From: an uncultured archaeon
GTDB taxonomy: Archaea; Halobacteriota; Methanosarcinia; Methanosarcinales; Methanoperedenaceae
Length of the DNA stretch: 43,727 nt
Assembly: GCA_902384525.1 (NCBI GenBank)
Contig: CABMCA010000104.1
Coordinates: 1-43,727 of the forward strand
Reading direction: 5' to 3'
Shown piece by piece: positions 22,499 through 43,727 of the stretch. The translations under genes were made by a program, and so were the position numbers. Every line of letters starts with the position of its first letter. Within the stretch, counting starts at the first letter, position 1. Below the pieces are notes generated by a model. That model saw only the letters and a list, made by a program, of their open reading frames with translations. It searched no databases and had not been told where the DNA came from.

Positions 22499-22583
22499 AA
22501 ATCATAAAGTATTTATGGGAATAAAAGAAATAAATAAGTATGAGAGGTATGGATATTTGCTCTAATAAAAGGTGGAATGTTTT

Positions 22584-23267: not shown

Positions 23268-23311
23268 GTAAGTAGGAAAAATTAAATTTTTTCCTATTTT
23301 TATCTTTTTTT

Positions 23312-24037: not shown

Positions 24038-24061
24038 TATTCAGAAATGATAGGTACATAA

Positions 24062-25630
24062 ATGGAAAAAAGGCATATCTTGCTTATCGTGGCGTTACTT
24101 TCTGCCATAGTATTCGTAATGCCAAACATTTATTCTTTATTTGCTGGCCAGCACTGGTTTTATGATACCGGAGTATCCTATTGTCTAAAATGCCATTCTG
24201 ATATCAAACAGGAGCTTGATTCTCAATTTCATCACACTTTTACATGTGAAAATTGCCATACTATCAATACGACTTCAAATGCAACGCATGGAAATGTGGT
24301 TTTACCAAGATGCCTTGATTGCCATTCTAATCCCAGGCGCCTTGTGACGGATTCAAATGGAAATACATTCCTCACTCCTCTTGCAAATGTATTTGGTGAA
24401 AATGTAACAAATGCGGAATCCCATAATCCTTTTATAGCAGGGGCAAATTCATCGCCCCTGATGAAAGGTGAAAATGAAGCATGTGTTTCCTGCCATACCA
24501 GGAAATCTATCAGCATCAATATACGTTATGCAGATACATACACGTTGAATTCCCGCAGGGTCAGTGACAGCACATGGCAAATATGGAATTATTCGAAAAA
24601 TGCAGAAAAATCAGCAAATTTGAATATTCAGTCCAATGAATCTTCAGGGAAGCATCTGTTTTTATCATTAAATCAATTGAAATGTGAAAAATGCCATCCG
24701 AATATTGAAGAAGAACTCACAAATTCCTCTCATCATATATCCTTTTCATGTATCTCCTGCCATCAGTTGTATTCAACATACCATGTTTCAAGTATTCCCC
24801 CATGTCTTGAATGTCATGGCACAGAACCAAAGATGGTCACTGATGTGAAAAAGAATACATATATTGCATCTGTAGCTCAGGTTTATGCAGAAAATCCGAC
24901 AGGTGCAGATGCGCATATCCCTTTTGTCCTGAGTGCCAATTCAAGTAATTTATCTGCAGGCAGTAACATTGCATGCTCTTCATGCCATTCCGGTTTAAAT
25001 AATAATATTATCTTTTCAAGACCGGAATATATTGAATGGGATGTTGAAAATTCAGGCGGCACATGGACGATACAAAATCTTGCATTGGGAGAAACAAAGG
25101 AAGTGAAGGTCATAAAATATTTAGATGGAAAATCCCATAATATATCAATAGATACAGGTTGCATATCCTGTCACGATGACATAAGGCAGGCAGTCTCTAA
25201 TGGCGGGCATTCTAACGAGCAGTGGGGAATGAAACATAATTATACAGGTTATAGCGATATGAACGTTTATTGCAGGTCATGCCATGATCCCTTTACTAAA
25301 GATAACCTTAATAATTCCCCATATCCGGCCTATCCTTTTAACTTCATCAATCATGGTTCTATTAAAATATTATGTATGGACTGTCATGGCAGATCAGGAA
25401 GCTTCTCAGTAAATTTCAATGGGATTATGAAGACGCCACCTTACAACAGTACTTCCATGGGCAGCATAGAGACTTCAATCAGTCTCCAGCCGGATTTTGT
25501 TCAATCATATCTGTGCATGGCATGTAAGAACACCGGGAATCCTGTTCCGAATACTTCATTACACTTTAAATTATATACTGAACCAGAGGTAAAGGTTTAT
25601 GTCAATGGAACGCAGCAATATCCGAAATAA
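24062..25630 (+). CDS. Dodecahaem-class cytochrome c: 11 CxxCH plus C-terminal CxxCK
   Basis: 522 residues. The N-terminal hydrophobic export segment ends NIYSLFAGQHWFYD. There are eleven CxxCH sites in three groups. Group 1: CLKCH, CENCH, CLDCH, CVSCH. Group 2 is a visible duplication of group 1: CEKCH, CISCH, CLECH, CSSCH. Group 3: CISCH, CRSCH, CMDCH, closed by CMACK (residues 485-489). After CMACK comes PNTSLHFKLYTEP, shared with the ends of the haem domains at 39835 and 40771. CxxCK is known as the active-site haem motif of NrfA nitrite reductases, but this protein does not otherwise look like NrfA. It is predicted to be an exported electron carrier or enzyme. Its last 32 nt overlap the next gene. 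Confidence 0.92.
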   Translation: MEKRHILLIVALLSAIVFVMPNIYSLFAGQHWFYDTGVSYCLKCHSDIKQELDSQFHHTFTCENCHTINTTSNATHGNVVLPRCLDCHSNPRRLVTDSNGNTFLTPLANVFGENVTNAESHNPFIAGANSSPLMKGENEACVSCHTRKSISINIRYADTYTLNSRRVSDSTWQIWNYSKNAEKSANLNIQSNESSGKHLFLSLNQLKCEKCHPNIEEELTNSSHHISFSCISCHQLYSTYHVSSIPPCLECHGTEPKMVTDVKKNTYIASVAQVYAENPTGADAHIPFVLSANSSNLSAGSNIACSSCHSGLNNNIIFSRPEYIEWDVENSGGTWTIQNLALGETKEVKVIKYLDGKSHNISIDTGCISCHDDIRQAVSNGGHSNEQWGMKHNYTGYSDMNVYCRSCHDPFTKDNLNNSPYPAYPFNFINHGSIKILCMDCHGRSGSFSVNFNGIMKTPPYNSTSMGSIETSISLQPDFVQSYLCMACKNTGNPVPNTSLHFKLYTEPEVKVYVNGTQQYPK

Positions 25631-26612: not shown

Positions 26613-26934
26613 CATACTTTCATTCTTGAGTTTAATTACATCATGAGATTTTTGGATTGTACGATATTTTGTTTCAGTTCTTTTCGTTGTTACGTTTCTA
26701 TATTTCGTAACTTCTTTTGTTGGCGGAATTATATCATATTTAAATTCCGTGTAATACAGAATCTGTATATTGGGCATCCAGTACGATATAATCAAGTGGT
26801 GCTTCCTCTATGTATGATTCGTTAACTGTATAATTATAATAGTTAAAATCTGTATATGGTTCCTCAACAGTAATGCCAATGAACAGGAAAAATGTAAGGA
26901 TAATTACGGTGTTTTTACGGTTTATTCTTTTCAT
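26577..26934 (-). pseudogene. Frameshifted secreted repeat-type protein
   Basis: Two minus-strand frames together make one plausible protein. Part 1 starts at ATG 26934 (MKRINRKNTVIILTFFLFIG, then EEPYTDFNYYNYTVNESYIE and APLDYIVLDAQYTDS) and stops soon after. Part 2, shifted by one base in the 26755-26785 zone, continues LYYTEFKYDIIPPTKEVTKY and RNVTTKRTETKYRT to the end at 26577. Tyr/Thr/Glu-rich strands followed by repeated V-T-K-Y-R units are a pattern seen in archaeal exported proteins. Either the gene is broken, or there is a sequencing error or a programmed shift. The start lies 4 nt after the stop of the propeller lipoprotein gene, as an operon member. Confidence 0.6.
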
Positions 26935-26938
26935 AGTA

Positions 26939-28468
26939 TCATATATATGTAGCTGCAATCTCTTCCACCAAATAAATTCCTCCGTTCTTTCGTGCAAGAT
27001 AATGGAAACGGTCCGGTGAATCAAACATGATCCCTCCTCCATCGTAGATAAATATAATAGAATCATATCTTTTTCCATCTTTTCCATCCACAACAACGAA
27101 TTGCCCGTCACTGTTTGAAACCCCATAAACCAGATGCTTGCTATCAGGGCTAAAAAGTAAGGAACCTTCTATGATACCATCGTATTGATTCCCTATACTG
27201 CTATTAATAACATCTTTTGCGTCATCATTTCCGACCTCATCAAAATTGCTGTCAGGTCTGAAGGTAATAATATTTTTAAATTTATCCCCATCAGTTGTTT
27301 CCTCTATCACGAACCATTTATCTCCTTCCCGTGCTACATAAGCTACTCGTTTGCTGTCAGGGCTAAATACCGGAGTATGCTTCAGGATATCGTCATATCG
27401 TTTTCCTTCCTTTCCATCCACAACTACAAACCACTTATCTCCTTCTCTTGCTGCATAAGCAATCCGTTTTCCATCGGGACTGAAAGTAAGGGTATGTTTC
27501 AGTATGCTGGCATATCGTTTCTGTTCTTTTCCATCCACCACTACAAACCATCCATCTTTATCTTTTGCAGCATAAGCAACTTTGCTGTCCGGACTGAAGA
27601 TGGGAGTATATTTCAGGATTTCATCAAATGCTTTTCCTTCTTCTTCATTCAATACCACAAACCACTTTCCATCCTTTTTTGCCACATAGGATGTTTTATT
27701 GCTATCCGGACTGAAGATAAAAGTGTTTGCCAGGATGCTATCATACCTTTTTTTCTCTATTCCATCAAATACTGCGAACATTTTGTCTTTATCTCTGGCG
27801 ATATAAGCCACTTGATCGCTATCAGGACTAAAGATAGGTGTTAAACTGATTTCAAAATGTTTCTGTTCTTTTCCGTTTATTAATACAAACCATTTATCTT
27901 CGTTTCTTACTGCGTATGCTACCTGTTTGCTATCAGGGCTAAAGACAGGTATTTCGCTACGATCGTATCTATTTTCCTCATTTCCGTCTATTATAGCGAA
28001 CCATTTTCCGCTATCATTTGCCACATAAGCCAGGTGCTTGCCATCCGGACTGAAGATGAGGTTTTTCACATTTTCATAGTGGGTTTGTTCTTTTCCATCA
28101 ATTACAACAAAAGACATATCATTCTCTTTTGCAGCATAAGCCAGGCGCTTGCTATCAGGGCTAAAAATGAAACCATTTATATCATCATATTTCTTTTCAT
28201 TTTCTCCATCCAAGACAATGAATCGCTTTTCTCCTTCTTTTTCAACATAAACAAATCGCGTACTATCCGGACTTATCTTGAAATTCTCCGGAATTCCGGA
28301 AAAAAATCCGAATTTAACAATAAGTTTTTCTGAAATCACCCTGCCAGCTATTTCTTCATTATTTTGAGTTCTTAATGGAGTTCCCTGTTGAATACAACCA
28401 CTTGCTAATATTAATATTGATATTAATATCAAGAGGGTTAGAATAAAAATAATTCTGCATAGTTTCAT
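26939..28468 (-). CDS. TolB/PD40-type beta-propeller lipoprotein
   Basis: 509 residues. The lipoprotein signal (LILISILILASGC) puts the lipidated Cys near residue 25. The mature part is about eleven units of roughly 40 residues with the core FSPDSKRLAYAAKENDMSFV and VVIDGKEQKRY, i.e. TolB/WD40-like PD40 propeller repeats. Several units are nearly identical in DNA, pointing to recent internal duplication. It is predicted to be anchored at the outer face of the membrane as a protein- or ligand-binding scaffold. It is divergent from the surface protein 28501-29790 with only about 30 bp between the assigned starts, so the promoters must overlap or one start lies further in. Confidence 0.88.
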   Translation of the reverse strand: MKLCRIIFILTLLILISILILASGCIQQGTPLRTQNNEEIAGRVISEKLIVKFGFFSGIPENFKISPDSTRFVYVEKEGEKRFIVLDGENEKKYDDINGFIFSPDSKRLAYAAKENDMSFVVIDGKEQTHYENVKNLIFSPDGKHLAYVANDSGKWFAIIDGNEENRYDRSEIPVFSPDSKQVAYAVRNEDKWFVLINGKEQKHFEISLTPIFSPDSDQVAYIARDKDKMFAVFDGIEKKRYDSILANTFIFSPDSNKTSYVAKKDGKWFVVLNEEEGKAFDEILKYTPIFSPDSKVAYAAKDKDGWFVVVDGKEQKRYASILKHTLTFSPDGKRIAYAAREGDKWFVVVDGKEGKRYDDILKHTPVFSPDSKRVAYVAREGDKWFVIEETTDGDKFKNIITFRPDSNFDEVGNDDAKDVINSSIGNQYDGIIEGSLLFSPDSKHLVYGVSNSDGQFVVVDGKDGKRYDSIIFIYDGGGIMFDSPDRFHYLARKNGGIYLVEEIAATYI

Positions 28469-28500
28469 ATTTTCAAAATCTTTATAAGTTAATCGGTATA

Positions 28501-29790
28501 TTGTTGTGCGTGGAATATAAACTTACTTTACTAATTATGGTATTTATTATCTTAACTGTTCCCTCTATGGCTGTTGATAATGGATATGCCAGGATAGTTT
28601 ATAATGTAAGAGGATTGCAGGATTATGATCTGCACTGGAATGACAGGTTTCCTCCCGGAAGCATTTTAAAGATTTATGTAGAGGCCGACGGTGTGAACCA
28701 TGAGCGTGAGGTGGCTGTTGATTACATTTTTATTATTAAGGATCCGAATAATAATATTGTGGATACTTCATTATATAGCAATAGATATGATGATTACAAA
28801 GACAATGATTTCATGACATATTCAAAAAATGTGCCGCAAGAGTGGGTTGATGGGGTTTATACGGCTGATATACATATTTTAGACCTATTGAATAAATCAC
28901 TTATGGATAAGTATTATAGTGATCTTATAGGATCATATGTGAATGAAACTGATAGGCCTGATCTTCCGGTAATGAATAGAAGCAATGCATCAGCTCTGCC
29001 GGATCAGCATTTCGTAATTACAAAAACATTTTTTGTCGACAGGTATGCAAATAAATACCCTGTTGACAGATTCAGAATAGAAAAAATCATGCTTGATAGG
29101 ACAAGTGTGGCACCAGATATGCCAGTTACAGTTAGCGTAAATGTGAGCAATACTTTTTATGATAAAGGTTCCACGTCACTTGATCTGTTATTAGATAATA
29201 AAGTAATTAACAAAACTACACTGGAAATTGAAAGTTATAGCTCCAGCCGGACTAATTTCACAGTTTCCAGCGGAATTATCGGGAATCATACTGTAGAGAT
29301 TATACCGACTGGAATGAATACCATCGGGTTAAATATGTCTGTTGTCTTCGCAGTGAGCGCAGAAAATAAGATAGAAACACCTACGGAATTTGTTTATCAG
29401 GATATACAGATAGATAAATTAAGCGTCGAGCCAAACCAGACAGTGAGTATTGCTGTGACAGTAAAAAATACCGGAAAGGAAGGAACCCAGCCTGTAGAGT
29501 TGTTTATTAACGACATGCTGGAAGAAGAAAGACAGGTAAATCTAAACTTTTCGGAAATTAAAGATATTTATTTCAATGTGACTAAAGGAGATCTGGGCGC
29601 ATACAGGGTTACAGTTGATAAATCAAATCTCAGCAAGATTTTTTTTGTGGAATCAAGCACACCTGTTCCTGCCGTAACAGTTGAACCCGCAATAGAAAAA
29701 AAGCCGCAGCTTAGGATCGTAATCGGCCTTTCAGTTATTGTTATATTGATATATTTATTAAGAATATATTTAAAAAACAAGTGGAAGTGA
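28501..29790 (+). CDS. Membrane-anchored surface protein with CARDB-like domains, paralogue of 37687-39144
   Basis: About 429 residues. The exact start is uncertain: TTG 28501, GTG 28510 or ATG 28537 are all in frame ahead of an export signal ending VPSMA. The N-terminal domain (about 25-180) is shared with 37687-39144: FIIKDPNNNIVD versus YVVNDPMNNIVA, W-V/I-D/E-G-x-Y, and KYPVDRFRIEKIML versus RYPPDRLLLHDV. It is followed by two Ig/CARDB repeats (VSVNVSNTFYDKGSTSLDL; VAVTVKNTGKEGTQPVEL) and one C-terminal TM (LRIVIGLSVIVILIYLL) with a basic tail. It is probably a structural protein of the cell surface that belongs to the cytochrome machinery, since both copies sit in cytochrome clusters. 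The MinD-like gene follows after 4 bp. Confidence 0.85.
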   Translation: MLCVEYKLTLLIMVFIILTVPSMAVDNGYARIVYNVRGLQDYDLHWNDRFPPGSILKIYVEADGVNHEREVAVDYIFIIKDPNNNIVDTSLYSNRYDDYKDNDFMTYSKNVPQEWVDGVYTADIHILDLLNKSLMDKYYSDLIGSYVNETDRPDLPVMNRSNASALPDQHFVITKTFFVDRYANKYPVDRFRIEKIMLDRTSVAPDMPVTVSVNVSNTFYDKGSTSLDLLLDNKVINKTTLEIESYSSSRTNFTVSSGIIGNHTVEIIPTGMNTIGLNMSVVFAVSAENKIETPTEFVYQDIQIDKLSVEPNQTVSIAVTVKNTGKEGTQPVELFINDMLEEERQVNLNFSEIKDIYFNVTKGDLGAYRVTVDKSNLSKIFFVESSTPVPAVTVEPAIEKKPQLRIVIGLSVIVILIYLLRIYLKNKWK

Positions 29791-29794
29791 TAAA

Positions 29795-30532: not shown

Positions 30533-30534
30533 TT

Positions 30535-31086: not shown

Positions 31087-31158
31087 TTTTAAAAACGGAC
31101 AAGATCCAAACAGCCCGAATACGCCATAATAGTACACGGTATCCCCGGCTGCATAGGG

Positions 31159-31743
31159 TTATGTTTCAAGTCCGATTTTTGCCTTGATCTGCAATATATC
31201 GCTTTCGATTTTGATCAATTTTTCATCAAGATATGATCTTAAATCCCGCCGCAAATCCTTGATCTCACTGCTGATCTCCGTCCTGGTTTGATCTAACTTC
31301 CCCAGAGTCTTCTCTTGATTTTCCAGCATTTGGTCTTGTTTCTCCAGCATCTGGTCTTGTTTCTCCAGCATCTGGTCTTGTTTCTCCAGCATTTTATCTT
31401 GTTTTCTGTCTATGCTCAGGATGGCTGGTATTCCCTTGCTTAGCTGCTCTACTTGGATCAAATGCATATAATCAACTATTCCTATCAGATAACCAGTATA
31501 GTCTTCAAAAATGACATCTGATACCTTTGCATTTTCAGGTTTATTATTCTGAACATAATCCTGGAATATCGATATTTGATCGCTGTCACCCTCCAGGAAT
31601 GAAATGAGTACCTGATCTCCGTTCTCCTTTGTGTTATAGGCATTGAATCGCTCCGCCCCCAGCTCAAGGGCTTTTCGAAGCAAGAATACACGGTAGCCTA
31701 CTTCATGCACCTTGTTTCCAATTATTTTTGCCTTAATCTTCAT
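31159..31743 (-). CDS. Acylphosphatase-like domain fused to a coiled coil
   Basis: 194 residues. Residues 1-90 fit the acylphosphatase fold: KAKIIGNKVHEVGYRVFLL with the phosphate-binding loop ending in GYR (R18), then helix ALELGAERFN and strands QVLISFLEGDSDQI. The catalytic Asn is expected near 34-37, where two Asn occur. Residues 125-155 are four heptad copies of KQDQMLE, and the rest (EISSEIKDLRRDLRSYLDEK) continues as a coiled coil. No export signal; cytoplasmic. The fusion suggests an oligomeric protein in which the acylphosphatase fold may serve binding, not catalysis. It is convergent with 30535-31086; a divergent promoter region is shared with 31876. Confidence 0.8.
   Translation of the reverse strand: MKIKAKIIGNKVHEVGYRVFLLRKALELGAERFNAYNTKENGDQVLISFLEGDSDQISIFQDYVQNNKPENAKVSDVIFEDYTGYLIGIVDYMHLIQVEQLSKGIPAILSIDRKQDKMLEKQDQMLEKQDQMLEKQDQMLENQEKTLGKLDQTRTEISSEIKDLRRDLRSYLDEKLIKIESDILQIKAKIGLET
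31320..31403 (-). repeat. Four tandem 21-bp units coding coiled-coil heptads
   Basis: Units at 31320-31340, 31341-31361, 31362-31382 and 31383-31403. The plus-strand core CCAGCATCTGGTCTTGTT varies only at a few bases. Each unit is seven codons (one heptad, KQDQMLE), so copy-number change lengthens the coil without shifting the frame. Confidence 0.95.
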
Positions 31744-31812
31744 TGTGGTAATATTTGTATCGGGCTACAAATAGATTTTGCAGTAACATTCTGAAAAATC
31801 ATTGTGATCGGG

Positions 31813-31859
31813 AGTTAAATTTAAATATAGAAGCTTAATTATATAGCCACTTGAAGTGG
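31813..31859 (+). promoter_or_regulatory. Promoter of the GT-C glycosyltransferase gene
   Basis: TTAAATTTAAATATAG (about 31815-31830) is a strong archaeal TATA region. About 20-25 bp downstream lies the inverted repeat CCACTTGAAGTGG (31847-31859), close to the expected transcription start and 16 bp before the ATG at 31876. It may be an operator or a short leader hairpin. Confidence 0.55.
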
Positions 31860-31875
31860 TGCAATCCGAATACCA

Positions 31876-33806: not shown

Positions 33807-35114
33807 ATGAACACAAAATTTACTTTAGCCATAATTGCGTTAGTTGGAATAGGCGTGTTCGCTTTGCCATCAACCATGTCGTTGTTCGCAGGCCAGCACT
33901 CTTTTTACAACATTGACGCAACAGGCAACCAGGTCCCGTGTCAGAAATGTCACGGTGATGTGAAAGCAGAATTACAGGGATCGTCAAATTCAATAACACC
34001 TACAAAAGGCCCGCATGCAGATTTCCAGTGCGAGTACTGCCACAGGGCTGAGCAGGGATTCGCAAGCGGTGACGATGCTTATGCTTCAATAACGTATTCC
34101 AGCGCAGCAGGAGCAAGAATTTCCTTAGTAACAACAGTACAGAACTTCGAGAGAGGAAATTTCCCGAAGGGTATATTATATACAGCAGCAATGGCAACCG
34201 CGCCAGGTGTCGATGGTTGGGAAGGAAATGTCTTTAATGCTGATGGCTCAGCATTCTTAAACCAGACACAGTTCTCAGACGCCAACGGAAAATACGCAGG
34301 CAGCTTACAGTCAAATGGAGTTGCAGGTACATTATATAACTATTCGTATGCCAGCGAAGTATCAACATATGCAAGCGGTACATACAAAGACACAAACCTT
34401 ACCTCACAGAAACAGGCGTTTAATCCGAGGGCGGTTACCTTTACCAACGCAACTGCAAGCCTTGTCAATGCAGGCTCAAGAGAAGTAACCCCTGGTACAA
34501 CATACCATGCAGCATCACTCGTCTCATGCCTTGAATGCCACGGCGGAGATCAAACCAAAGGTGTTGCAGGATACGAGGTTGATACCCCAGAACCGTATAA
34601 CCATGCAGGCTGGTTAATTGACCCCACAAATCCGAACAGCAATTGTGCTAACTGCCACTATTCAACTGCCAGCCATACCCCGGCATTTGAGACTCAACTC
34701 GCAGCAGGCGGGTTTGGTTTAACAGGCAACGCGAACGATACTGGCTCCACAGAAGCCCATAATGCATTCGTGAAGACAAATGATGGAATCAATAGATTCG
34801 GCTATGGCGCATCAAACGGCGCATGCGTCGCATGCCACACGCACGTTGCAGTGGACATCAACTTCAAGAAGGGCTACAAGCTTGCCTTTGACGCAATTGA
34901 ACAGAAAAATGGTTCATATAGCGTTGGCAACTTCGCAGTTGAAGGAAGCGTCAATGTCGCAATATACGGCAATGGCTCTGGCCAGACCTTCGGTGTGGGC
35001 GATAAGTCATACACATGGACACCAACCAAGACCCTGTATGTGAACGGCAATGGCGCAGTGATCACCGGTCTTAATGGTGCATCCAGCGACAACGCAACAG
35101 CATTAACAAATTAA
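33807..35114 (+). CDS. Pentahaem cytochrome c of the LFAGQH type, probably highly expressed
   Basis: 435 residues. The export segment ends STMSLFAGQHSFYN. Five CxxCH sites are CQKCH, CEYCH, CLECH, CANCH and CVACH, the last within ACVACHTHVAVDINF. Between sites 2 and 3 lies a haem-free stretch of about 140 residues (ASGDDAYASITYSSAAG ... QNFERGNFPKGIL) that is shared with 36636-37595. CANCH is an extra site not present there. The coding DNA is visibly richer in GC and in C-ending codons (AAC, GGC, TAC) than its neighbours, with its own promoter, long leader and terminator. Together this fits a single, strongly expressed gene. Predicted exported electron carrier. Confidence 0.93.
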   Translation: MNTKFTLAIIALVGIGVFALPSTMSLFAGQHSFYNIDATGNQVPCQKCHGDVKAELQGSSNSITPTKGPHADFQCEYCHRAEQGFASGDDAYASITYSSAAGARISLVTTVQNFERGNFPKGILYTAAMATAPGVDGWEGNVFNADGSAFLNQTQFSDANGKYAGSLQSNGVAGTLYNYSYASEVSTYASGTYKDTNLTSQKQAFNPRAVTFTNATASLVNAGSREVTPGTTYHAASLVSCLECHGGDQTKGVAGYEVDTPEPYNHAGWLIDPTNPNSNCANCHYSTASHTPAFETQLAAGGFGLTGNANDTGSTEAHNAFVKTNDGINRFGYGASNGACVACHTHVAVDINFKKGYKLAFDAIEQKNGSYSVGNFAVEGSVNVAIYGNGSGQTFGVGDKSYTWTPTKTLYVNGNGAVITGLNGASSDNATALTN

Positions 35115-35129
35115 ATCCATAAAACTGGG

Positions 35130-35170
35130 ATGGGTAATCCCCATTTCCTTTTTTTTCTTTTTTATAATAG
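35130..35170 (+). terminator. Hairpin plus T-tract terminator
   Basis: The stem ATGGG/CCCAT (35130-35134 with 35140-35144, loop TAATC) is followed directly by a C/T run with eight consecutive T and then TTTTTT. It lies 16 bp after the pentahaem stop and separates this gene from the next unit. Confidence 0.75.
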
Positions 35171-35217
35171 GTTTTTGAACTATAATTATTATCGATTATA
35201 GATGTTTTCACCGGATG

Positions 35218-35263
35218 TAAACAACTTTATATACTTTAGTTACATTGTTTAACTTGTGATAGG
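35218..35263 (+). promoter_or_regulatory. Promoter of the small-protein/hexahaem unit
   Basis: CTTTATATACTTT (about 35224-35236) is a good TATA box some 28 bp before the ATG at 35264, so the leader is very short. GTGATAGG directly before the ATG matches the archaeal anti-Shine-Dalgarno (GGTGAT family). Confidence 0.6.
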
Positions 35264-35491
35264 ATGAAAGTCATCAGGATTGACGATGTTGACAAGATCA
35301 ACTTTGATAATCTCAAAGCTGAGTTTAAGAACCGCTTTTCAAAAGAACCGTATTGTGATGTGAAAGAATTCTGTACATTGAAAGATTCAAGTTTTTTAAA
35401 CCTGCTCATTGAGATATGGAAAAACACCTCCTATGAAGAAATTATTGATAAACTTTCAGTTTATGATGAATTCAAGAATTATAAAAAGTGA
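35264..35491 (+). CDS. Small protein of unknown function between cytochrome genes
   Basis: 75 residues, soluble, without signal peptide: it starts MKVIRIDDVDKINFDNLKAE and continues with two Cys (YCDVKEFCTL) and a helical C-terminal part (SFLNLLIEIWKNTSYEEIID). The strong promoter and ribosome site, and the 6-bp gap to the hexahaem cytochrome, support a real gene. The family is not recognised. As a cytoplasmic protein that is first in a cytochrome transcript it could be a regulator or an assembly factor, but nothing in the sequence proves either. Confidence 0.65.
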   Translation: MKVIRIDDVDKINFDNLKAEFKNRFSKEPYCDVKEFCTLKDSSFLNLLIEIWKNTSYEEIIDKLSVYDEFKNYKK

Positions 35492-35497
35492 AAAAGG

Positions 35498-36100
35498 ATG
35501 AATAAAAAGGCAATTTTGAATTATATATTCTTTATTTTGGTATTATTCACTGTACAATTTGCAAGAGGGGAGATTCCTGATTACCATAAACCTACACCGT
35601 GTTTTGGCTGCCATGCGGAAACCCTGGGCGCTGATTACGGTTCAGGTGAATGCGGGAACTGTCATTATTATAAATTACCAGGAGGGGGTTTCAATCTAGA
35701 ACTTTTGCAAAATGAGCATAACCCGAAGATATGTAAAGGATGTCATATGGGAAACACCCAGGTCAATGCCAGTGAGAGAGATATATTCCACAATGGACAT
35801 AATGCTGTAAACTGTAATATATGTCACACACAGGATAATTTCACGGTTATAAAAATTGAAGGGGTTGAAAAGAAAGGATTCCAGTGTGTGCAATGTCATG
35901 GTGATCAAGTTCACGGCATTCATATCAAGAATATCACTAAAATTTGCCCTATATGTCATGGTTCCTGGGCAAAGGATAAAGTTTATATAAAGGGTTCTGC
36001 TACGTCATCTAATGAATCTCAAAAAACCCTAAATCTTGAAAAATTTACCATATTTGCTTTCATAAAACAAATATTTAATGCAATATTTGGAGTAATATGA
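35498..36100 (+). CDS. Hexahaem cytochrome c
   Basis: 200 residues. The signal peptide (ILNYIFFILVLFTVQFARG) leads to a mature start EIPDYHKPTPCFGCH. Six CxxCH sites: CFGCH, CGNCH, CKGCH, CNICH, CVQCH, CPICH. It matches 21384-22064 in haem order and in the closing CPICHGSWAKD versus CETCHGDFAKN, and ends in the same kind of hydrophobic helix (FAFIKQIFNAIFGVI), a possible membrane contact. Predicted to pass electrons in the pseudoperiplasm, perhaps from a membrane donor to the larger cytochromes (inference). It is followed by the Ig-like gene 36173, as in cluster A. Confidence 0.93.
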   Translation: MNKKAILNYIFFILVLFTVQFARGEIPDYHKPTPCFGCHAETLGADYGSGECGNCHYYKLPGGGFNLELLQNEHNPKICKGCHMGNTQVNASERDIFHNGHNAVNCNICHTQDNFTVIKIEGVEKKGFQCVQCHGDQVHGIHIKNITKICPICHGSWAKDKVYIKGSATSSNESQKTLNLEKFTIFAFIKQIFNAIFGVI

Positions 36101-36172
36101 ATGGATAAGGAGAAAAAAAATGAAATACTTAATAACAGGGTACTGATATTTTCAGTATTGGAAGTGACATAA

Positions 36173-36634
36173 ATGGTCGGAAAAAAAACAATAACATACG
36201 GTATAATAATACTGCTGGTACTATCGGCATCGGGATATTATCTCTATCAGCATGCTATAGATTATGGATTGGAAAAACCTGCGCTTATATTGAAAGTTTC
36301 CACGAATCTAACTGATAAAGGAAACCCTATGATCAACAATGTAACGTTTGAGCAATCGGGTGTAGCATTTTTCTATAAGAGGGCGGATTCAATTCCGCAA
36401 TTCCCTGAAGTTGATGCTAATGCACGCTTAAACAACCTGAATTCAGCCCCTGCGAGTTTCTGGGCTTCTGCTCATCGGCCAGAAGAAGGTGTATTTTCCC
36501 TCAGGCTTTTCTTCAGAGATGGAAAAGAACCCAAAAAAGGCGATGTCTTGATCATACCGATCCGCCTCGTTAGTCATACAGGCGCCATTCAGTATAAAAC
36601 TACAGCTTTCTATTGTTGGAGCTGCGAGGAGTGA
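36173..36634 (+). CDS. Membrane-anchored Ig-like protein, partner of the hexahaem cytochrome
   Basis: 153 residues. The N-terminal TM or uncleaved signal is ITYGIIILLVLSASGYYLY; no lipobox. A beta-rich domain follows (NNVTFEQSGVAFFYKRADS; VFSLRLFFRDGKEPKKGDV; LIIPIRLVSHTGAIQYKTT) and ends WSCEE. It is the counterpart of lipoprotein 22061-22498: same size, same place after the hexahaem gene, and same strand pattern in the last 60 residues. The anchor type differs (TM here, lipid there). GAAGTGACATAA is the ribosome site region. The next cytochrome starts one base after its stop. Confidence 0.8.
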   Translation: MVGKKTITYGIIILLVLSASGYYLYQHAIDYGLEKPALILKVSTNLTDKGNPMINNVTFEQSGVAFFYKRADSIPQFPEVDANARLNNLNSAPASFWASAHRPEEGVFSLRLFFRDGKEPKKGDVLIIPIRLVSHTGAIQYKTTAFYCWSCEE

Positions 36635-36635
36635 G

Positions 36636-37595
36636 ATGAAACTGGTGTGGGTACTGCTTGCCTTAGGCGGGATTTCCATATGGCTTATCCCAAATACCCT
36701 CTCATTACTTGGAGGCCAGCATACATTCTATAATATTGACCTGAACGGCTCCCAGGTTCCCTGTGGAAAATGTCACGGGGATATTCAGATGGAGCTCCAC
36801 ACCGGTTTCATACACAACAACTTCACATGTGCCGATTGTCACCGTGTCCAGAAAGGTGTGCAGTATGCAAGCGGTGATGATGCTTATGAAAGATTGATGT
36901 ATATCAATGTTACAGGACCATCAAACATTCAGTACAGGTTTCTCGCAACCACTATCCAGAATTACCAGAGGGGAAATTTCCCGAAATCAATTTCCGGTGA
37001 AATCACAATAGACCAGTGGGCTGCTACGGGTAAAGATGAGGTGCAGTTCCGTGATATAAATGGTCAATATGCAGGGAACATGACCCCTGGAGATATGGGT
37101 ATATTATATAATTACGAAAAAGAGACCGAGATATCCACTTACATCAACGGCATGACGAAGGATACTGACATCGTAACACGAAATACCACGCTCGATCCGA
37201 GAAAAATCAAAGTGAACAAAGATCCCTCAGGATCAGACGATATCAATGGTGCAGGATCAAAAATTGTAACTCCAGGTACATTAGCCCATGCCTCATCCAC
37301 TATACTTTGCGCTGAGTGTCATTCGGAGTACCTTAACAATACTCCAGACACTATACATGAAGCTTTCATCAAGTACGGTATGGAACATAACACCAATGAT
37401 AATTGTATCGCCTGCCATACTTCAACAGCAGTATCCATAAACTGGACACGCCCGAGCACCATTGCCATTGAAACAAACTCAAATGGCAACAATATTACCA
37501 TTAATAACACCTATGCGACTAAAACTATAAGAATAGAGACTTTTGGAAATATGTCAGCAGATGTCATAGCTGTATCGGATGTGACGGTGATATGA
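36636..37595 (+). CDS. Tetrahaem cytochrome c of the GGQH type
   Basis: 319 residues. The export segment ends PNTLSLLGGQHTFYN. Four CxxCH sites: CGKCH, CADCH, CAECH and CIACH, the last within CIACHTSTAVSINW. The haem-free insert between sites 2 and 3 (ASGDDAYERLMYINVTGP, QNYQRGNFPKSISGE) is the same as in the pentahaem protein 33807-35114, but the extra CANCH of that protein is missing and the DNA is less GC-rich. It is probably a lower-expressed relative. It sits tightly behind the Ig-like gene. Confidence 0.92.
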   Translation: MKLVWVLLALGGISIWLIPNTLSLLGGQHTFYNIDLNGSQVPCGKCHGDIQMELHTGFIHNNFTCADCHRVQKGVQYASGDDAYERLMYINVTGPSNIQYRFLATTIQNYQRGNFPKSISGEITIDQWAATGKDEVQFRDINGQYAGNMTPGDMGILYNYEKETEISTYINGMTKDTDIVTRNTTLDPRKIKVNKDPSGSDDINGAGSKIVTPGTLAHASSTILCAECHSEYLNNTPDTIHEAFIKYGMEHNTNDNCIACHTSTAVSINWTRPSTIAIETNSNGNNITINNTYATKTIRIETFGNMSADVIAVSDVTVI

Positions 37596-37686
37596 AAAAA
37601 ATACATTATAATGATTATTACATTAATGATTGTATATATGACAAAAAATATAAACTCAAGAAACATATTATTAAAAGAGATTATAT

Positions 37687-39144
37687 ATGAGATATTTAAT
37701 TATTTCAATATTCATTCTAATGCTTATTGCTCCACTTGTATCAGCCCAGGGTGAATTCCTTTTTGATCTTGCGGCCAAAAGCCAGAATGATGGCACTTAT
37801 GTAAAGCACTGGTCTGCTACATATCCTCCGGATCCGAAGGCTGATATAGTCGTTTATTCGGAAGTTAAAAACATGGCATATAAACGATTGTCAGCCCTGG
37901 GTTTTGTCTATGTAGTTAATGATCCTATGAATAATATCGTGGCAGTAGAAAAAATAAGTTCCTTCAAAAGAAGTTATGATCCTAATATTGTTTATTATAC
38001 CCTGCATCCTAAGGCCGATTGGATAGAAGGAAACTACAAGATCAATATAGTTGTATTCGATATGGTTGACCGTGAAGCATACGATGAAAATGTTTCAAGT
38101 GACCCATTTGCTATTGGTATTAATCCGGATATGTATAAAATATTCTACGATACTGGTGCAAATGCTAAAGATCTGGGAGTGCTTCGTGAGCTTGGCATTC
38201 CGGCAGCGCGGGCAGTATTAAATTTTAAGATAGACAAAAATGTTAGTAGATATCCGCCTGATAGACTCCTTCTTCATGATGTCAGGTTCATTGATAATAG
38301 CACTGACCGCATACTTGGAGAGAAACTCAAGATCGAAGTTAAGTTAGATAACAATTATAAAGACGATGCCGATGTCAAGCTTTCTATGCTTGTAGATCAA
38401 AATATGGTCTCAACCAAGGATGTCACTGTAAAAGGTCTCAATAATTCTACTATTATCTTTGATGCAAAAGCAGGAAAACTGGGAACTTTTAAACTGCACT
38501 TTGGAGCAGATACCCCGGATTTGAAATACAGGGATGCAGAGTTGACATTCACCATCAAAAACGAGACAGAATCCAGCAGACTTCCCGAGCTTCCTCAAAT
38601 AAAAATTACAGGTATGAACGTCAATAAAGAGTTCGCAGGTGTTGGCGAGAATGTAACTGTTACAGTACAGGCGATAAATAATGGGAAGACAGGTAACAAG
38701 ACTATAACGGTCTATTCAAACAGGGTTCCAATTGGATCGTCCAATATCAATCTGGAGTACCTTGAAGAAAAATCTGTAGAAATACCCGTTAATTTAAAAA
38801 CGATGGGAATAAACAAGATAACAGTATCTGATGCTCCTCAACTTTTTAGAAACGTATTTATTCAGGATGCTGAAGCTTCAACAGGACCGAACCCTATCCT
38901 TGCCAAAGTCAAGGAAAATACTTTAAAATTATCAATTGTTTTGGTATTCCTGATGTTTGCCGGAATGCTTTACTATGTAAGAAATAAGTTAAAAGAAGAA
39001 ACTCCAATTAATGCTCCTTCACAAGGAATTACGGATAAGCTTATTGAAAATAGTTTTTGGGATTTGAAGGATAAGATGTCCAATAAGATGGATGAAATGA
39101 CTGGCAAGATGAAAGATATCTTAAAGAAAAAACCACGAACCTGA
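37687..39144 (+). CDS. Membrane-anchored surface protein with CARDB-like domains
   Basis: 485 residues. The signal peptide (IISIFILMLIAPLVSA) leads to an N-terminal domain shared with 28501-29790 (YVVNDPMNNIVAVEK; DWIEGNYKINIVVFD; RYPPDRLLLHDV). Two CARDB-like repeats follow (KIEVKLDNNYKDDADVKLSM; VTVTVQAINNGKTGNKTITV), then a C-terminal TM (LKLSIVLVFLMFAGMLYYV) and a cytoplasmic tail of about 55 residues with an amphipathic K-M-D/M-T-G-K-M helix, longer than in the paralogue. It is probably a structural part of the cytochrome assembly at the membrane. The next gene, the signal peptidase, starts 7 bp on. Confidence 0.85.
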   Translation: MRYLIISIFILMLIAPLVSAQGEFLFDLAAKSQNDGTYVKHWSATYPPDPKADIVVYSEVKNMAYKRLSALGFVYVVNDPMNNIVAVEKISSFKRSYDPNIVYYTLHPKADWIEGNYKINIVVFDMVDREAYDENVSSDPFAIGINPDMYKIFYDTGANAKDLGVLRELGIPAARAVLNFKIDKNVSRYPPDRLLLHDVRFIDNSTDRILGEKLKIEVKLDNNYKDDADVKLSMLVDQNMVSTKDVTVKGLNNSTIIFDAKAGKLGTFKLHFGADTPDLKYRDAELTFTIKNETESSRLPELPQIKITGMNVNKEFAGVGENVTVTVQAINNGKTGNKTITVYSNRVPIGSSNINLEYLEEKSVEIPVNLKTMGINKITVSDAPQLFRNVFIQDAEASTGPNPILAKVKENTLKLSIVLVFLMFAGMLYYVRNKLKEETPINAPSQGITDKLIENSFWDLKDKMSNKMDEMTGKMKDILKKKPRT

Positions 39145-39151
39145 TTGAAAT

Positions 39152-39838
39152 ATGAAAGAAGTAGATTATATGGTACCATTGATTATTTCAGGGATATTTT
39201 CAATGTTACTATTGGGTTTCTACTATTATAAATCAGAAAATTCGGTTGTTATGCACTTCATTTCATCCTGGTACATGAAAACCAGATACAGTAGGGCGAT
39301 AATACAAAAGGACACACGAAAAGAGGAGGGCATCATGCTAATCGTTCTAGTAATACTCATATTAGCATTTGGCCTGAAATTCATTGTATTCACGGCTGTC
39401 ATCTCGGATTCCATGAAGCCCGAATTCCAGAGAGGAGATCTTGTATTTACACAAACTATATCTAAAGATCCCCAGGTTGGAGATATAATCACATTCAATG
39501 CATTCGGCGTTCAAAACACTGTGACTCACAGGGTTATTGGCATTCAAAATGATATTGTAACCACAAAAGGTGATAATAATCCTCTTGCAGATGATTATGG
39601 TACAACAAAAAAAGATATTATTTCAAAAGCTATTGTTATAGAAGGGCATCCTGTTGTGTTAAAAGGTATGGGTTCTTATTTTATTCTGGATTTTTCCAAA
39701 GAAGGTAAACTCTATAAATACGGAGACCAGTTCGAATTCTTACAGAATTTTTTCATAATGATACGAACATGGGGGTATGTTATTACAATAATAGCTTTTA
39801 GCGCTTTGATAATGACTATGATGGGGAATAAAAGATGA
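39152..39838 (+). CDS. Signal peptidase I, archaeal S26B type (second copy)
   Basis: 228 residues from ATG 39152 (ATG 39170 also possible). An N-terminal TM, a second TM (IMLIVLVILILAFGLKFIVF), the catalytic domain and a C-terminal TM (GYVITIIAFSALIMTMM). The triad is S87 (VISDSMKPEF), H126 (NTVTHRVIGI) and D141 (TTKGDNNPLADD), the usual S26B arrangement. Same topology as 23312-24037. Its stop overlaps the start of the CxxCK cytochrome 39835-40719 by 4 nt, stronger coupling than in cluster A. A dedicated role in maturing that cytochrome is likely (inference). Confidence 0.93.
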   Translation: MKEVDYMVPLIISGIFSMLLLGFYYYKSENSVVMHFISSWYMKTRYSRAIIQKDTRKEEGIMLIVLVILILAFGLKFIVFTAVISDSMKPEFQRGDLVFTQTISKDPQVGDIITFNAFGVQNTVTHRVIGIQNDIVTTKGDNNPLADDYGTTKKDIISKAIVIEGHPVVLKGMGSYFILDFSKEGKLYKYGDQFEFLQNFFIMIRTWGYVITIIAFSALIMTMMGNKR

Positions 39839-40719
39839 ATAAGAAAATATATATAATAGTTGTTTTCGTGGTCATCGTTGCTGCTTTAATTCAAACAGTT
39901 TCTTTTATCAATATCGATAAACAGGTTTTACAGTCTGATCAGGGTGGATGTATAAAGTGCCACACAAATGTAAAGACCCAATTATCCACATCATCCCAGC
40001 ACTCCTCATTTTCCTGTACAAACTGTCATCCCAAATCACCACTTAATCATACAAATAAGGCTCCGGAATGTGAATACTGCCATGATTCAACGCAATTGGG
40101 TGATACCCATGAAGCCCATTCCGATTTCATACCTTTGAATTCAGAAGGGTGTATAGCCTGTCATACGAACTATAATGTAGTAATTAACTATTCAAGACCC
40201 GAATTTATTTCTTACACAATCACGAACGATTCGGGAAATTGGATCATCTCCAATTTCGCAACAACAGGCGTATTGAATCTCTCTTATAATGCAATGAAAC
40301 CTGGAGGCAACCACAATGTTAAGAATGTATCGTGCAGAGATTGCCATAAAGATATATTCGATGCGGTTTCTGCGAAAGGTCATGCTGTCGTTGAAGGAAA
40401 AGATGGGAAAGAATCACTTTACCATAATATAAGTAACACGATAAGCAAAGAAGCATGGTGTCTCACCTGCCATAATCCGAGAGATAACAAATTTTCAGCA
40501 CAGCAGCATTCAGCACGCAAAACAACCTGTGAAGAATGCCATGAAACATATAATTTATCAGCCCATCCGGGCAATTTCTATACTAATATCAAAACAGTTC
40601 CTCGTTTATACCGAAGTCTAGTGTGCATATCATGTAAATCTGTGGGATGGCAAGTACCTAACACAACATTGAAGTTTAAAGTACATCAAGAGCCATATTT
40701 CGATGTAACGATGTCGTGA
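39835..40719 (+). CDS. Octahaem-class cytochrome c: 7 CxxCH plus C-terminal CxxCK
   Basis: 294 residues. The N-terminal TM or signal is IYIIVVFVVIVAALIQTVSF. Sites in order: CIKCH, CTNCH, CEYCH, CIACH, CRDCH, CLTCH, CEECH, and CISCK at 264-268. The last is followed by SVGWQVPNTTLKFKVHQEP. It corresponds to one four-haem module plus the terminal CxxCK module of 24062-25630, and to the haem domain of 40771. It lacks the LFAGQH element. The lysine motif suggests a haem with a Lys ligand or an open site; catalysis is possible but no substrate is indicated. Coupled to the signal peptidase gene by 4 nt. Confidence 0.93.
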   Translation: MNKKIYIIVVFVVIVAALIQTVSFINIDKQVLQSDQGGCIKCHTNVKTQLSTSSQHSSFSCTNCHPKSPLNHTNKAPECEYCHDSTQLGDTHEAHSDFIPLNSEGCIACHTNYNVVINYSRPEFISYTITNDSGNWIISNFATTGVLNLSYNAMKPGGNHNVKNVSCRDCHKDIFDAVSAKGHAVVEGKDGKESLYHNISNTISKEAWCLTCHNPRDNKFSAQQHSARKTTCEECHETYNLSAHPGNFYTNIKTVPRLYRSLVCISCKSVGWQVPNTTLKFKVHQEPYFDVTMS

Positions 40720-40770
40720 TCAAATGTTCAAGCTCATATTCCCCGATGATATCCAGAGTCTTTGAGAAAA

Positions 40771-43727
40771 ATGAATAAGAATTTATACCTGATAGTAATT
40801 TTGGTTTTAGCAATAACCACTATTAGTCAGACCGTTTCATTCATCATCGGTGACCATCAATTTTATCAATCAGTCCAGGATAAATGCATAAAATGCCATG
40901 GAGATATCAAGGCACAGCTTTCCACATCAGACCGGCATACAAATTTCTCATGTGTTAGCTGTCATGTCAGATCTGCAACTAACCATACTAACAAGCAACC
41001 AGAGTGTAGTTACTGCCATGCTACATCCAGTATGAACGATACATTAGAAGCCCACCCGGATTTTTCATCGCTAGGTTCAGAAGGGTGTGTAGCCTGCCAT
41101 TCGACCTATAACGCGGTCTTAAACTACTCCCGGCCAGAGTATATCGACTATACAATTAAAAATAATAACGGAAACTGGATAATCTCAGATTTCAAAACCG
41201 AAGGAACATTAAATCTATCATATGATGCTATGAGACAGGGCGGAAAGCATAATATAAAAAATGTCTCATGTAAAGACTGCCATAAAGACATCTTTGATGC
41301 AGTTTCGTTAGGCGGGCATGCTGTAGTTCTCGCCAAAAATGGAACACAAGTACCTTATCACAATAATTCTAACTCCACCCCTGAAGAATGGTGCAGGACA
41401 TGCCATAGCAATAACGATACCAAATTCCCGAACCAACAACATTCCATAAAAAAGACCACATGTGAACAATGCCATCAAGCTTATAATTTAACGCATCCAG
41501 GCAATTTTTTTTCAAATATGAATACAGTTCCTCATTTGTACCGCAGCCTTGTCTGCATATCATGTAAATCCATAGGCTGGCCAGCACCCACTGGGGGGAT
41601 AAGTTTCAAAGTTCGTGAAGAACCTTATTATGATGTTGCATTCGAGATAATCGTACCTTTGAATATAACCAATTCCTCACCTGCCAGCGACCCAACTACG
41701 CCGATAGGTGTATCTCAAACATTTTCTGCAACTCTGAACAGATTTGCAGATATCACCTGGTATAATAACGGTTCTGAGATTTTCAGGGTCTTAAGTGTAA
41801 TATCTGCAAGTTATACCGATTCAAAAAAAATTCCTGGGGTTTATAATATTACAGCAATTGCCAGTGATAGTTATAATTCAGCCACAAGGACATGGACATG
41901 GAATGTCACTAACGGAACCGGAGGTGGAGGAGGCGGTGGTAGCGGCGGTAGTGGTGGTAGCGGCGGAGGTATAGGAAGTGGTACTTCGAATAATATAAGC
42001 GGCTATGTATTCGATAATTTTGGTTCACCACTTTCAGGCGTGCTTGTTCAAAACGGGAGCTACCAGAATAACACCTCAGAATCAGGCTTTTATTCGATAA
42101 CGAATATTCCCAATGGTGAATACAATTTCACATACTCCAAAGCCGGATTTGATAGTGATTATTTCATATTTTCACTTGGCGGCATTACCATGGAAAATAT
42201 GAATAAGACCCTCTTTGATAGAACACCTCCGAGTTCAGTTACCAATCCTAATTCAACAACCGGTAATTTCTTCATAAACAATACATGGATCAATCCGTCA
42301 GATATTGATTTCAATAGAACGATATTCAAATATGGCAATGGAAGTATTATCCAGAGTCTTAACAACTCTACAAATTATCTCAATCTTACTTATTCCCCAC
42401 ATTATGTTCAGAATATTACTGCTCAGACGGTAGATAATTTCGGAAATGAGAATGAGACTCTTGTATGGTTCAATGTTACTATACCGGATAATATTCCGGT
42501 TTTGTCTCCAATTGGAAATAAAACAGTAAATGAAGGCAAATTGCTTGCATTCAATATCTCCGCTGTGGATGCTGATAATGACACAATGACTTATGGAACT
42601 AATGCAACAAATGGCACTTTAAATGCAACTTCAGGGGAGTTTTCATGGATTCCTGGCTATGGAGATGCAGGTGTATATATATTGAATTTCAATTCCAGCG
42701 ATGGATATGGTGGTGTGGCGAATGAAACGATTAATGTTACAGTTAATGATGTTCCTTTGTCAATCATAGATTCATTACCACCTGTAGATCCTGTTACCCC
42801 ATCCGGTATCGTTCAAACATTTGGCCTGACTCTTAATAGAACTGGAGATGTCACCTGGTACAATAACGGCATTAAGAAGTTCACGATCATGGGCGTATCA
42901 TCTGCAAATTATACAAATTCAGTAGCAAATGTTGGAATTTATAACATAACGGCCATTTCAAATGATGGATACGATTCTATTTCACGCAATTGGAGCTGGA
43001 ATGTTACGGCTGGAAGCAAGGGGTGGTTAGAGGGGGGAGGGGGCAGCGGAGGAATGATTAATAATTTAAGCGGGTTTGTATTCGATAATTTTGGTTCACC
43101 ATTATCGGGTGTGCTGGTGCAGAATGGCAGTTATCAGAATATTACATCTCCTTCAGGCTACTATTCAATAGCAAATTTGTCAAACGGAACATATAATTTC
43201 AGCTATTCCAAAGCCGGATTTAGTACTGGCTATTTTGAATTTTCATTTAACGGGGCAATTATAATAAATGCGAACAAAACGATATATGATAATACGCCGC
43301 TGGACTCGGTATCTAATCCGAATATGATAACAGGTAACTTTTATATCAATAATACATGGACTAATCCGGTGGATGCAGATTTCAATCATATCAATTTCAA
43401 TTACTCAAATGGAACCGTTGCTTTTGTGGCTAACAGCACTACAACTTTCTGGAACCGTACCGGATTATCACCGCATGAAATTCAGAATATCAGTGCCCAG
43501 ACCGTTGATATATATGGGAACATTAATACAACGAATGTCTGGTTCAACGTTACAATACCTAACAATGTGCCCAACCAGACCACGATTGGAAACAAGACAA
43601 TAACAGCAGGCTCATTGTTAACCTTCAATGTCTCAGCAACAGATGCGGATAATGACACTATCACTTACGGCACGAATGCAACGAAGGGCATACTGAACAC
43701 CACAACCGGAACCTATTCCTGGCTCAC
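40771..43727 (+). CDS. Multihaem cytochrome fused to cell-surface repeat domains, C-terminus off the right edge
   Basis: The frame from ATG 40771 stays open to the window end, at least 985 residues. The export segment (LIVILVLAITTISQTVSFII) is followed by GDHQFYQ. The haem domain (1-280) has CIKCH, CVSCH, CSYCH, CVACH, CKDCH, CRTCH, CEQCH and CISCK (262-266), closely similar to 39835-40719. From about 290 on come two copies of a surface module: an Ig-like domain ending TWYNNG... and NITAI..., a Gly/Ser linker, a carboxypeptidase-regulatory-like domain (YVFDNFGSPLSGVLVQNGSY), a further beta domain, and a cadherin-like domain (NKTVNEGKLLAFNISAVDAD). It is very rich in N-x-S/T sequons. It could bridge the pseudoperiplasm and the cell exterior, as proposed for S-layer-type cytochromes of ANME archaea. 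The full length and anchor lie outside the window. Confidence 0.93.
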   Translation, partial: MNKNLYLIVILVLAITTISQTVSFIIGDHQFYQSVQDKCIKCHGDIKAQLSTSDRHTNFSCVSCHVRSATNHTNKQPECSYCHATSSMNDTLEAHPDFSSLGSEGCVACHSTYNAVLNYSRPEYIDYTIKNNNGNWIISDFKTEGTLNLSYDAMRQGGKHNIKNVSCKDCHKDIFDAVSLGGHAVVLAKNGTQVPYHNNSNSTPEEWCRTCHSNNDTKFPNQQHSIKKTTCEQCHQAYNLTHPGNFFSNMNTVPHLYRSLVCISCKSIGWPAPTGGISFKVREEPYYDVAFEIIVPLNITNSSPASDPTTPIGVSQTFSATLNRFADITWYNNGSEIFRVLSVISASYTDSKKIPGVYNITAIASDSYNSATRTWTWNVTNGTGGGGGGGSGGSGGSGGGIGSGTSNNISGYVFDNFGSPLSGVLVQNGSYQNNTSESGFYSITNIPNGEYNFTYSKAGFDSDYFIFSLGGITMENMNKTLFDRTPPSSVTNPNSTTGNFFINNTWINPSDIDFNRTIFKYGNGSIIQSLNNSTNYLNLTYSPHYVQNITAQTVDNFGNENETLVWFNVTIPDNIPVLSPIGNKTVNEGKLLAFNISAVDADNDTMTYGTNATNGTLNATSGEFSWIPGYGDAGVYILNFNSSDGYGGVANETINVTVNDVPLSIIDSLPPVDPVTPSGIVQTFGLTLNRTGDVTWYNNGIKKFTIMGVSSANYTNSVANVGIYNITAISNDGYDSISRNWSWNVTAGSKGWLEGGGGSGGMINNLSGFVFDNFGSPLSGVLVQNGSYQNITSPSGYYSIANLSNGTYNFSYSKAGFSTGYFEFSFNGAIIINANKTIYDNTPLDSVSNPNMITGNFYINNTWTNPVDADFNHINFNYSNGTVAFVANSTTTFWNRTGLSPHEIQNISAQTVDIYGNINTTNVWFNVTIPNNVPNQTTIGNKTITAGSLLTFNVSATDADNDTITYGTNATKGILNTTTGTYSWL
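41650..43727 (+). repeat. Two direct copies of a roughly 1.1-kb surface-domain module
   Basis: Copy 1 is about 41650-42755, and copy 2 runs from about 42764 to the window end. Matching points are 1098 bp apart at the start (ACCTGGTA at 41755 and 42853), 1071 bp apart at the regulatory-like domain (GTATTCGAT at 42007 and 43078) and 1074 bp at the last domain. The difference comes from a shorter Gly-rich linker in copy 2. Protein identity by eye is above half in the best stretches. Confidence 0.9.

Follow-up and report, generated by a model that had tools for sequence, protein, structure and literature searches.

A terminal CxxCK site in nanowire-related multihaem cytochromes of Methanoperedens and its probable exchange of a haem ligand from His to Lys

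Introduction

CxxCK is familiar as an active-site motif of nitrite reductases. Its appearance as the last site of multihaem cytochromes that otherwise carry CxxCH raised the question of whether haem is bound there, with which ligands, and for electron transfer or catalysis. The question came from a DNA stretch of 43,727 nucleotides (the window), which lies on contig C104 of a 2.92 Mb genome with a completeness of 97%. NrfA has been described in Methanoperedens (PMC4683180), and CXXCK proteins were counted in a motif screen of methanogen and alkanotroph genomes (PMC8351635). In the literature within reach, which did not include most subscription papers, preprints and supplements, we found no account of a terminal CxxCK in a Methanoperedens cytochrome family.

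Results

Terminal CxxCK sites in the window

A sequence-only reading of the window had claimed three CxxCK motifs in three cytochromes. All of them were found, at the following positions.

24062-25630, + strand: 12-site multihaem cytochrome with 11 CxxCH and a terminal CMACK (from sequence motifs and family search)
25514-25528, + strand: terminal CMACK of the 12-site cytochrome, Lys codon AAG
39835-40719, + strand: short 8-site cytochrome with seven CxxCH and a terminal CISCK
40624-40638, + strand: terminal CISCK of the short 8-site cytochrome, Lys codon AAA
40771-43727, + strand: giant 8-site cytochrome with seven CxxCH and CISCK, ORF from the ATG at 40771 and open at the window end
41554-41568, + strand: CISCK closing the haem part of the giant protein, Lys codon AAA

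Of the 52 CxxC motifs in the window's eight multihaem ORFs, 49 were followed by His and three by Lys. In the two complete proteins, 26 and 33 residues remained after the Lys. The haem module of the giant protein was followed by Ig-like (Big_9) and carboxypeptidase-regulatory-like repeats, and a close relative of this protein had a frame of 3138 codons. A conserved flank had also been described. Its E-P was kept, and the spacing in the three proteins was corrected to P-x-x-x-[LI]-x-F-K-x-x-x-E-P. However, only F281, E286 and P287 (numbering of 39835-40719) were invariant across the 23 rows of the family, and E-P was also present in relatives with CxxCH, so the flank gave no evidence for the Lys itself.

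Family members

Relatives of the short protein with E below 1e-100 were found in 10 of the 34 genomes of the archaeal family, own genome included, and the 12-site protein with its 8-site variants in six of the 34. Together, the terminal-site family covered 13 genomes, all of one genus, Methanoperedens. The close relatives of the window were Candidatus Methanoperedens. The BLZ2 record contained the short protein at 87% identity, and contig C2 of genome G004 contained the 12-site protein at 95% identity. A search of 237 genomes of the class with the C-terminal half, in which at most the best 15 candidates per genome were scored, gave the same 13 genomes and G048. In G001, a second, weak match to this half was obtained (E 2.2e-9).

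The family set comprised 23 proteins, namely eight short, eight giant and seven of the 12-site branch. The GTDB loci L037-L044 were excluded from it as repeats of proteins already counted. Matches at E 0.001 occurred in 21 of the 34 genomes; the weaker ones, mostly tetrahaem relatives of partial length, were excluded from the family. Scans of viral contigs with both profiles found no relative.

Lys or His at the terminal site

The terminal site of the 23 members from 13 Methanoperedens genomes was Lys in 18 and His in five, with no other residue. Lys was present in all eight short proteins, four of the eight giant proteins and six of the seven proteins of the 12-site branch, and the remainder had His. 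The codons were AAA or AAG for Lys and CAT or CAC for His, so each switch takes two base changes. Both terminal Cys were invariant in 30 of 30 aligned rows, and neither Asn nor Gln was found at the site in these rows. The earlier claim that the Lys is under selection was borne out by its frequency, by the two-base change and by His as the sole alternative. His or random residues in homologues had been named as a point against this claim. His did occur, in the five members and outside the genus, whereas random residues were not seen. Since only His replaced Lys, the case for a haem ligand became stronger.

Outside the genus, the homologous site was His in all seven aligned relatives (other families of the order, ANME-1 and Archaeoglobales). 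A phylum-wide draw matched 42 of 392 genomes, and 30 ORFs were listed from 28 fetched loci. The ORFs had been chosen by at least five CxxCH and C[ML][GA]C, a pattern that CISCK would fail. One ORF (L173_1) was without the site, and the other 29 all had His, 25 through the C[ML]GC motif and four through the place in the motif list. An unfiltered census of these loci contained no CxxCK. The 29 ORFs and the seven relatives share some genomes, and the two counts are not additive.

The trees were made with the site's own column omitted. On that of the 23 proteins, the Lys/His label needed three changes. With the seven outsiders, the best tree had five changes and the bootstraps four to five, and at least three were forced by the starred branches. 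The G048 and G051 proteins, both with His, grouped next to the 8-site branch, a placement that was weakly supported and carried a long-branch warning. With this placement, Lys may have been gained more than once. His is likely the ancestral state, and Lys was likely gained once or twice within Methanoperedens, with reversals or further gains afterwards. No other column split the Lys rows from the His rows over all 23 proteins, so the exchange of Lys and His left the rest of the site as it was. When only the giant copies were compared, Lys and His were split by ten columns, the terminal-site column among them. Other 4/4 splits gave nine, and the ten-column split is background.

Evidence for a true haem site

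The residue after CxxC was counted in 124 distinct ORFs with at least three CxxCH, a non-random sample of loci collected around the terminal-site family. It was His in 705 cases and Lys in 22, with no other residue. Eighteen of these Lys belonged to the terminal site, and four to the CxxCK of NrfA proteins. In an enlarged census of 172 ORFs, there were 1016 His, 22 Lys, three Met and one Val, and the three Met cases overlapped with the next CxxCH. We regard the terminal CxxCK as very probably a true haem site with a proximal ligand that can switch between His and Lys. The inferred haem on the terminal Cys pair has a strong case, and Lys as its proximal ligand a fairly strong one.

Candidate distal ligands

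Three residues were considered as distal partners.

25457-25459, + strand: Met 19 residues before the terminal CxxC, in 7/7 of the 12-site branch, candidate distal ligand by its putative role
40507-40509, + strand: His225 of 39835-40719, conserved in 23/23, weakly similar to NrfA and on this ground a candidate distal ligand for the terminal haem
40564-40566, + strand: His244, 20 residues before the terminal CxxC, in 16/16 of the 8-site branch, the other candidate distal ligand by its putative role

All 16 proteins of the 8-site branch had free His at positions 56, 72, 95, 160, 183, 197, 225 and 244, which made eight conserved free His for eight haem sites. Seven of them were conserved across all 23 proteins. 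The spacing of His244 to the terminal CxxC was 20 residues (21 in one row), and its counterpart in the 12-site branch was the Met at -19, one position along. Four 12-site proteins had 15 free His in common. In a weak local match to NrfA (1qdb, domain E 0.033), the terminal site fell on one of the enzyme's CxxCH and His225 on one of its His. By the ligand pairs of NrfA, His225 would be the distal ligand, and His244 or the Met would then presumably serve another haem. The distal partner is ambiguous, with His225 and His244, or the Met in the 12-site branch, as candidates. Under either assignment, there is a candidate distal ligand for every haem. We infer with moderate confidence that the terminal haem is a six-coordinate electron-transfer haem. 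Counting of His leaves room for an open haem, because the active site of NrfA also holds a free His that does not coordinate (PMC12285233).

AlphaFold2 models were too poor for ligand geometry, both for the short protein (23 rows, mean pLDDT 59.9, pTM 0.50) and for the C-terminal half (30 rows, mean pLDDT 55.5, pTM 0.44). Foldseek with the short-protein model gave no match at E 0.001. His56 was replaced by Met in the G048 and G051 proteins (L082 and L083), a second His/Met exchange in a probable ligand column. The His of a GxH at residue 29, which is common to the family and the nanowire protein, was missing from three of 16 proteins, the short copies of G000, G004 and G014, and from no others. 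Such a change could affect filament docking.

Nanowire homology and gene setting

The neighbouring genes of the three cytochromes are listed below.

22584-23267, + strand: tetrahaem cytochrome, homologue of the Archaeoglobus veneficus nanowire protein 8E5G (E 6.8e-28)
23312-24037, + strand: signal peptidase I, encoded immediately before the 12-site cytochrome
25599-26612, + strand: membrane protein (by eye), overlapping the end of the 12-site gene
33807-35114, + strand: five-haem cytochrome, kept in the cassette
36636-37595, + strand: nanowire-like tetrahaem cytochrome (8E5G match, E 6.7e-13), encoded upstream of the two 8-site cytochromes
39152-39838, + strand: signal peptidase I, with an ORF that runs into the start of the short 8-site gene

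The family profile matched 8E5G at E 1.3e-14 over positions 4-133, the N-terminal half only. The C-terminal half alone matched at E 0.0011, and the 12-site protein alone at E 4.2e-7 over residues 6-54 only. The earlier impression that the proteins look like electron carriers was substantiated by this homology of the family profile to a wire system. PDB 8E5G is AvECN (F2KMU8), the nanowire of A. veneficus (PMC12954529). The four CxxCH in the N-terminal half of the family are homologous to those of AvECN. However, AvECN has four sites, whereas the family has eight or 12, a second tetrahaem half and the terminal CxxCK. In AvECN, the distal His comes from another subunit for three of the four haems (PMC12203936), and a review describes the haems of cytochrome wires as all bis-His (PMC12954529). 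A Lake Cadagno study named ECN in BLZ2 and a relative (PMC12246660).

Signal peptidase I was directly upstream of the terminal-site cytochrome in all eight loci L037-L044. A relative of 36636-37595 was present in seven of these eight, and the eighth (L040) starts too late. In four further loci (L039, L046, L048 and L139), a relative of 25599-26612 lay close to the homologous cytochrome. The ANME-1 loci L046 and L048 repeated the order of signal peptidase, nanowire-like, multihaem and membrane protein. Chadwick et al. noted two neighbours of ANME cytochromes, a signal peptidase and a membrane protein with eight helices (PMC9012536), and it is a guess that 25599-26612 is this membrane protein.

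The loci L045-L048 (ANME-1, another member of Methanosarcinales, and Archaeoglobales) resembled the family in their homologous sites and free His columns. A nanowire-like neighbour was present in all four, and a signal peptidase in L045, L046 and L048. However, the homologous site read CMGCH in these loci and was followed by one or two further CxxCH. The extra CxxCH, which was also present in L084, was followed by an ESEPSG-like strand, which we take to be PEGA-like.

The window also contained two paralogous-looking cytochrome cassettes, 21384-25630 and 33807-41640. In each, a CxxCK cytochrome was accompanied by signal peptidase I, a small multihaem protein and a tetrahaem protein of the nanowire-like kind. 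The ORFs 28501-29790, with a CARDB domain, and 37687-39144 are probable distant paralogues beside the two cassettes; the G004 counterpart of 28501-29790 (L140) matched 37687-39144 at 21%. On the minus strand, 31159-31743 had an acylphosphatase-like start (by eye) and a DQMLEKQ heptad run. The ORF 26939-28468, also on the minus strand, was lipoprotein-like with many FSPDSKRVAYA-type repeats and looked propeller-like by eye.

Haem maturation

PF01578 was represented by four proteins in own genome. One was a member of the CcmF/NrfE family with 797 aa, and the others were a 338-aa relative, CcmC and CcsB. The 797-aa protein scored below the cut-offs of the models. CcsB scored above its cut-off and adjoined ResB, which made a System II pair. 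ResB was found in 17 of the 34 family genomes. A System II lyase tied to Lys was rejected, with ResB in six of the 10 Lys genomes and 11 of the 24 others. The 338-aa class was present in nine of the 10 Lys genomes and unseen in the tenth (G025, 63% complete). It was missing in two of the three genomes with His only (G001 and G003) and present in G015 (His), and it also occurred in many genomes without the terminal-site family. A link of this class to the Lys state may be at most a hint.

Among the lyase classes compared in the 34 family genomes, no dedicated lyase was found to track the Lys state. The suggested look for a second lyase led to the proteins of own genome given above. A review describes Shewanella oneidensis as without nrfEFG, and its CcmF and CcmI may serve both motifs (PMC12285233). 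The earlier statement that CxxCK normally needs a specialised lyase was too strong in view of this organism. A dedicated lyase may be unnecessary, because NrfA of S. oneidensis apparently matures without nrfEFG (PMC12285233).

At L135:316-2617 (G000:C128), the System II haem-lyase pair consisted of ResB with 492 aa and CcsB with 280 aa (above cut-off). Behind it came an ORF with eight haem motifs, truncated where the fetched stretch ended. ResB was also present in the control Methanosarcina acetivorans. In contrast, a 2015 survey had detected no System II in Archaea (PMC4429474).

Comparison with nitrite reductases

Full-length NrfA was not found in own genome, where the matches to PF02335 were partial only; the best had E 2e-11 over positions 243-386 of 438. 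NrfA matches with E below 1e-100 were limited to four of the 34 family genomes (G001, G003, G004 and G030). Partial matches to other multihaem proteins occurred in 33 of the 34, including own genome, and 25 of them were above the cut-off. The G025 genome, 63% complete, had a partial match with E 5.8e-22. Lys was not tied to NrfA, as full-length NrfA was present in one of the 10 Lys genomes and three of the 24 others.

In the NrfA layout, CxxCK is the first of five sites and C-terminal helices come after the last haem; the open distal side of the active site has Arg, Tyr and His. NrfA (PF02335) and the present family share the CxxCK motif, and both have natural CxxCH variants. However, the CxxCK of NrfA is the first of five sites (PMC12285233), whereas that of the family is the last of eight or 12. 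TvNiR is an octahaem protein with seven CxxCH and one CxxCK (PMC8840924), like the 8-site forms. It differs in having about 520 residues against 294 in the short protein, and in the place of the CxxCK, which is at the end in the family. Its profile matches were weak and partial (E 0.0005 and above).

Discussion

The reading that we lean towards is a redox-tuned, probably six-coordinate, Lys-ligated terminal haem on an end piece or adaptor derived from a nanowire, which arose by a change from His to Lys within Methanoperedens. The terminal CxxCK would be a covalent haem c site in which only the proximal ligand was exchanged. The haem would retain a distal partner, either His225 or His244 and, for the 12-site branch, the Met, and would probably be six-coordinate and low-spin. 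It would serve electron transfer and not open catalysis. In the haem module, which is homologous in its first half to the nanowire subunit of A. veneficus, this haem would take the C-terminal position. Within a conduit of the nanowire type, the cytochromes would most likely serve as end pieces or adaptors. The short and 12-site forms would work near the membrane, whereas in the giant form a long stalk of Ig-like repeats would bear the haem module. The Lys would retune, and probably lower, the potential of the end haem, or render its ligation pH- or redox-labile. Homology and gene order suggest that the haem has an end position on a wire adaptor, and a lower or ligand-labile potential would be expected from general haem chemistry. 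In cytochrome c550, the replacement of Met100 by Lys gave a drop of 329 mV, although this is a different exchange from His to Lys (PMC8840924).

A catalytic role would be another explanation of the Lys. The terminal haem would then be a five-coordinate site like that of NrfA, acting on nitrite, hydroxylamine or a similar substrate. The other CxxCK in the 124 surveyed ORFs were solely in the four NrfA proteins, and natural CxxCH forms are also known in NrfA (PMC12285233). Weak matches around the terminal site were obtained with 1qdb (E 4.8e-5 for the whole profile, domain E 0.033), and models of NrfH (E 2.9e-5 and 2.5e-4) and an NrfB-like protein (E 5.9e-5) matched weakly, all below the cut-offs. 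OcwA, from a different microbe that also exports electrons, is a surface cytochrome with open haems that reduces nitrite, but its ligands are His (PMC6703420). However, in the 1qdb match the counterpart of the terminal site was a CxxCH and not the CxxCK of NrfA, and PF02335 was unmatched at E 0.01 in all three proteins. The 26 or 33 residues beyond the Lys in the two complete proteins are too short for the C-terminal helices of NrfA, and a candidate distal ligand is conserved for each haem. The activity of NrfA from E. coli or Wolinella was abolished or lowered when the Lys was changed to His (PMC8840924), whereas the family exchanged the two residues with no co-varying column. The catalytic option of the sequence-only reading lost ground with the missing PF02335 match, the merely partial matches in the genome and the distal candidate for each haem. 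The NrfA-like reading is weak, and we consider it unlikely.

It is quite improbable, in our estimate, that Lys and His are near-neutral, with a local lyase that takes both and an exchange of little functional meaning. The number of changes on the tree, at least three and more likely four to five, would fit this, as would the even split of the giant copies and the lack of a co-varying column over all 23 rows. However, a neutral exchange is difficult to reconcile with the two base changes required when no Asn or Gln appeared in 30 aligned rows. Lys was kept in every one of the eight short copies, and apart from NrfA no other CxxCH turned into CxxCK in the surveyed ORFs. We hold it to be very improbable that the terminal Cys pair is free of haem, as a leftover or a disulfide, with the Lys as a mark of haem loss. 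This would agree with the outcome that no dedicated lyase was found to track the Lys state, and with the failure of NrfI to haemylate engineered CxxCK motifs (PMC12285233). However, a dead site would be expected to drift, and here both Cys were kept in 30 of 30 rows and the alternative was always the His of a full CxxCH.

With a Lys-ligated electron-transfer haem at the end of the module, surveys of cytochromes that use CxxCH only would overlook one haem per protein of this family. The natural His forms in close relatives would make a direct comparison of paired proteins possible. We tentatively propose that Methanoperedens has evolved a natural switch of the proximal ligand between His and Lys on the end haem of nanowire-derived cytochromes, working both ways and outside the relatives of nitrite reductase. 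Through it, the contact of the wire with the membrane and the outside acceptor may be tuned or gated. If the end haem is indeed Lys-ligated, the choice of ligand would set the potential at the end of the conduit in a nanowire-derived family of methane-oxidising archaea.
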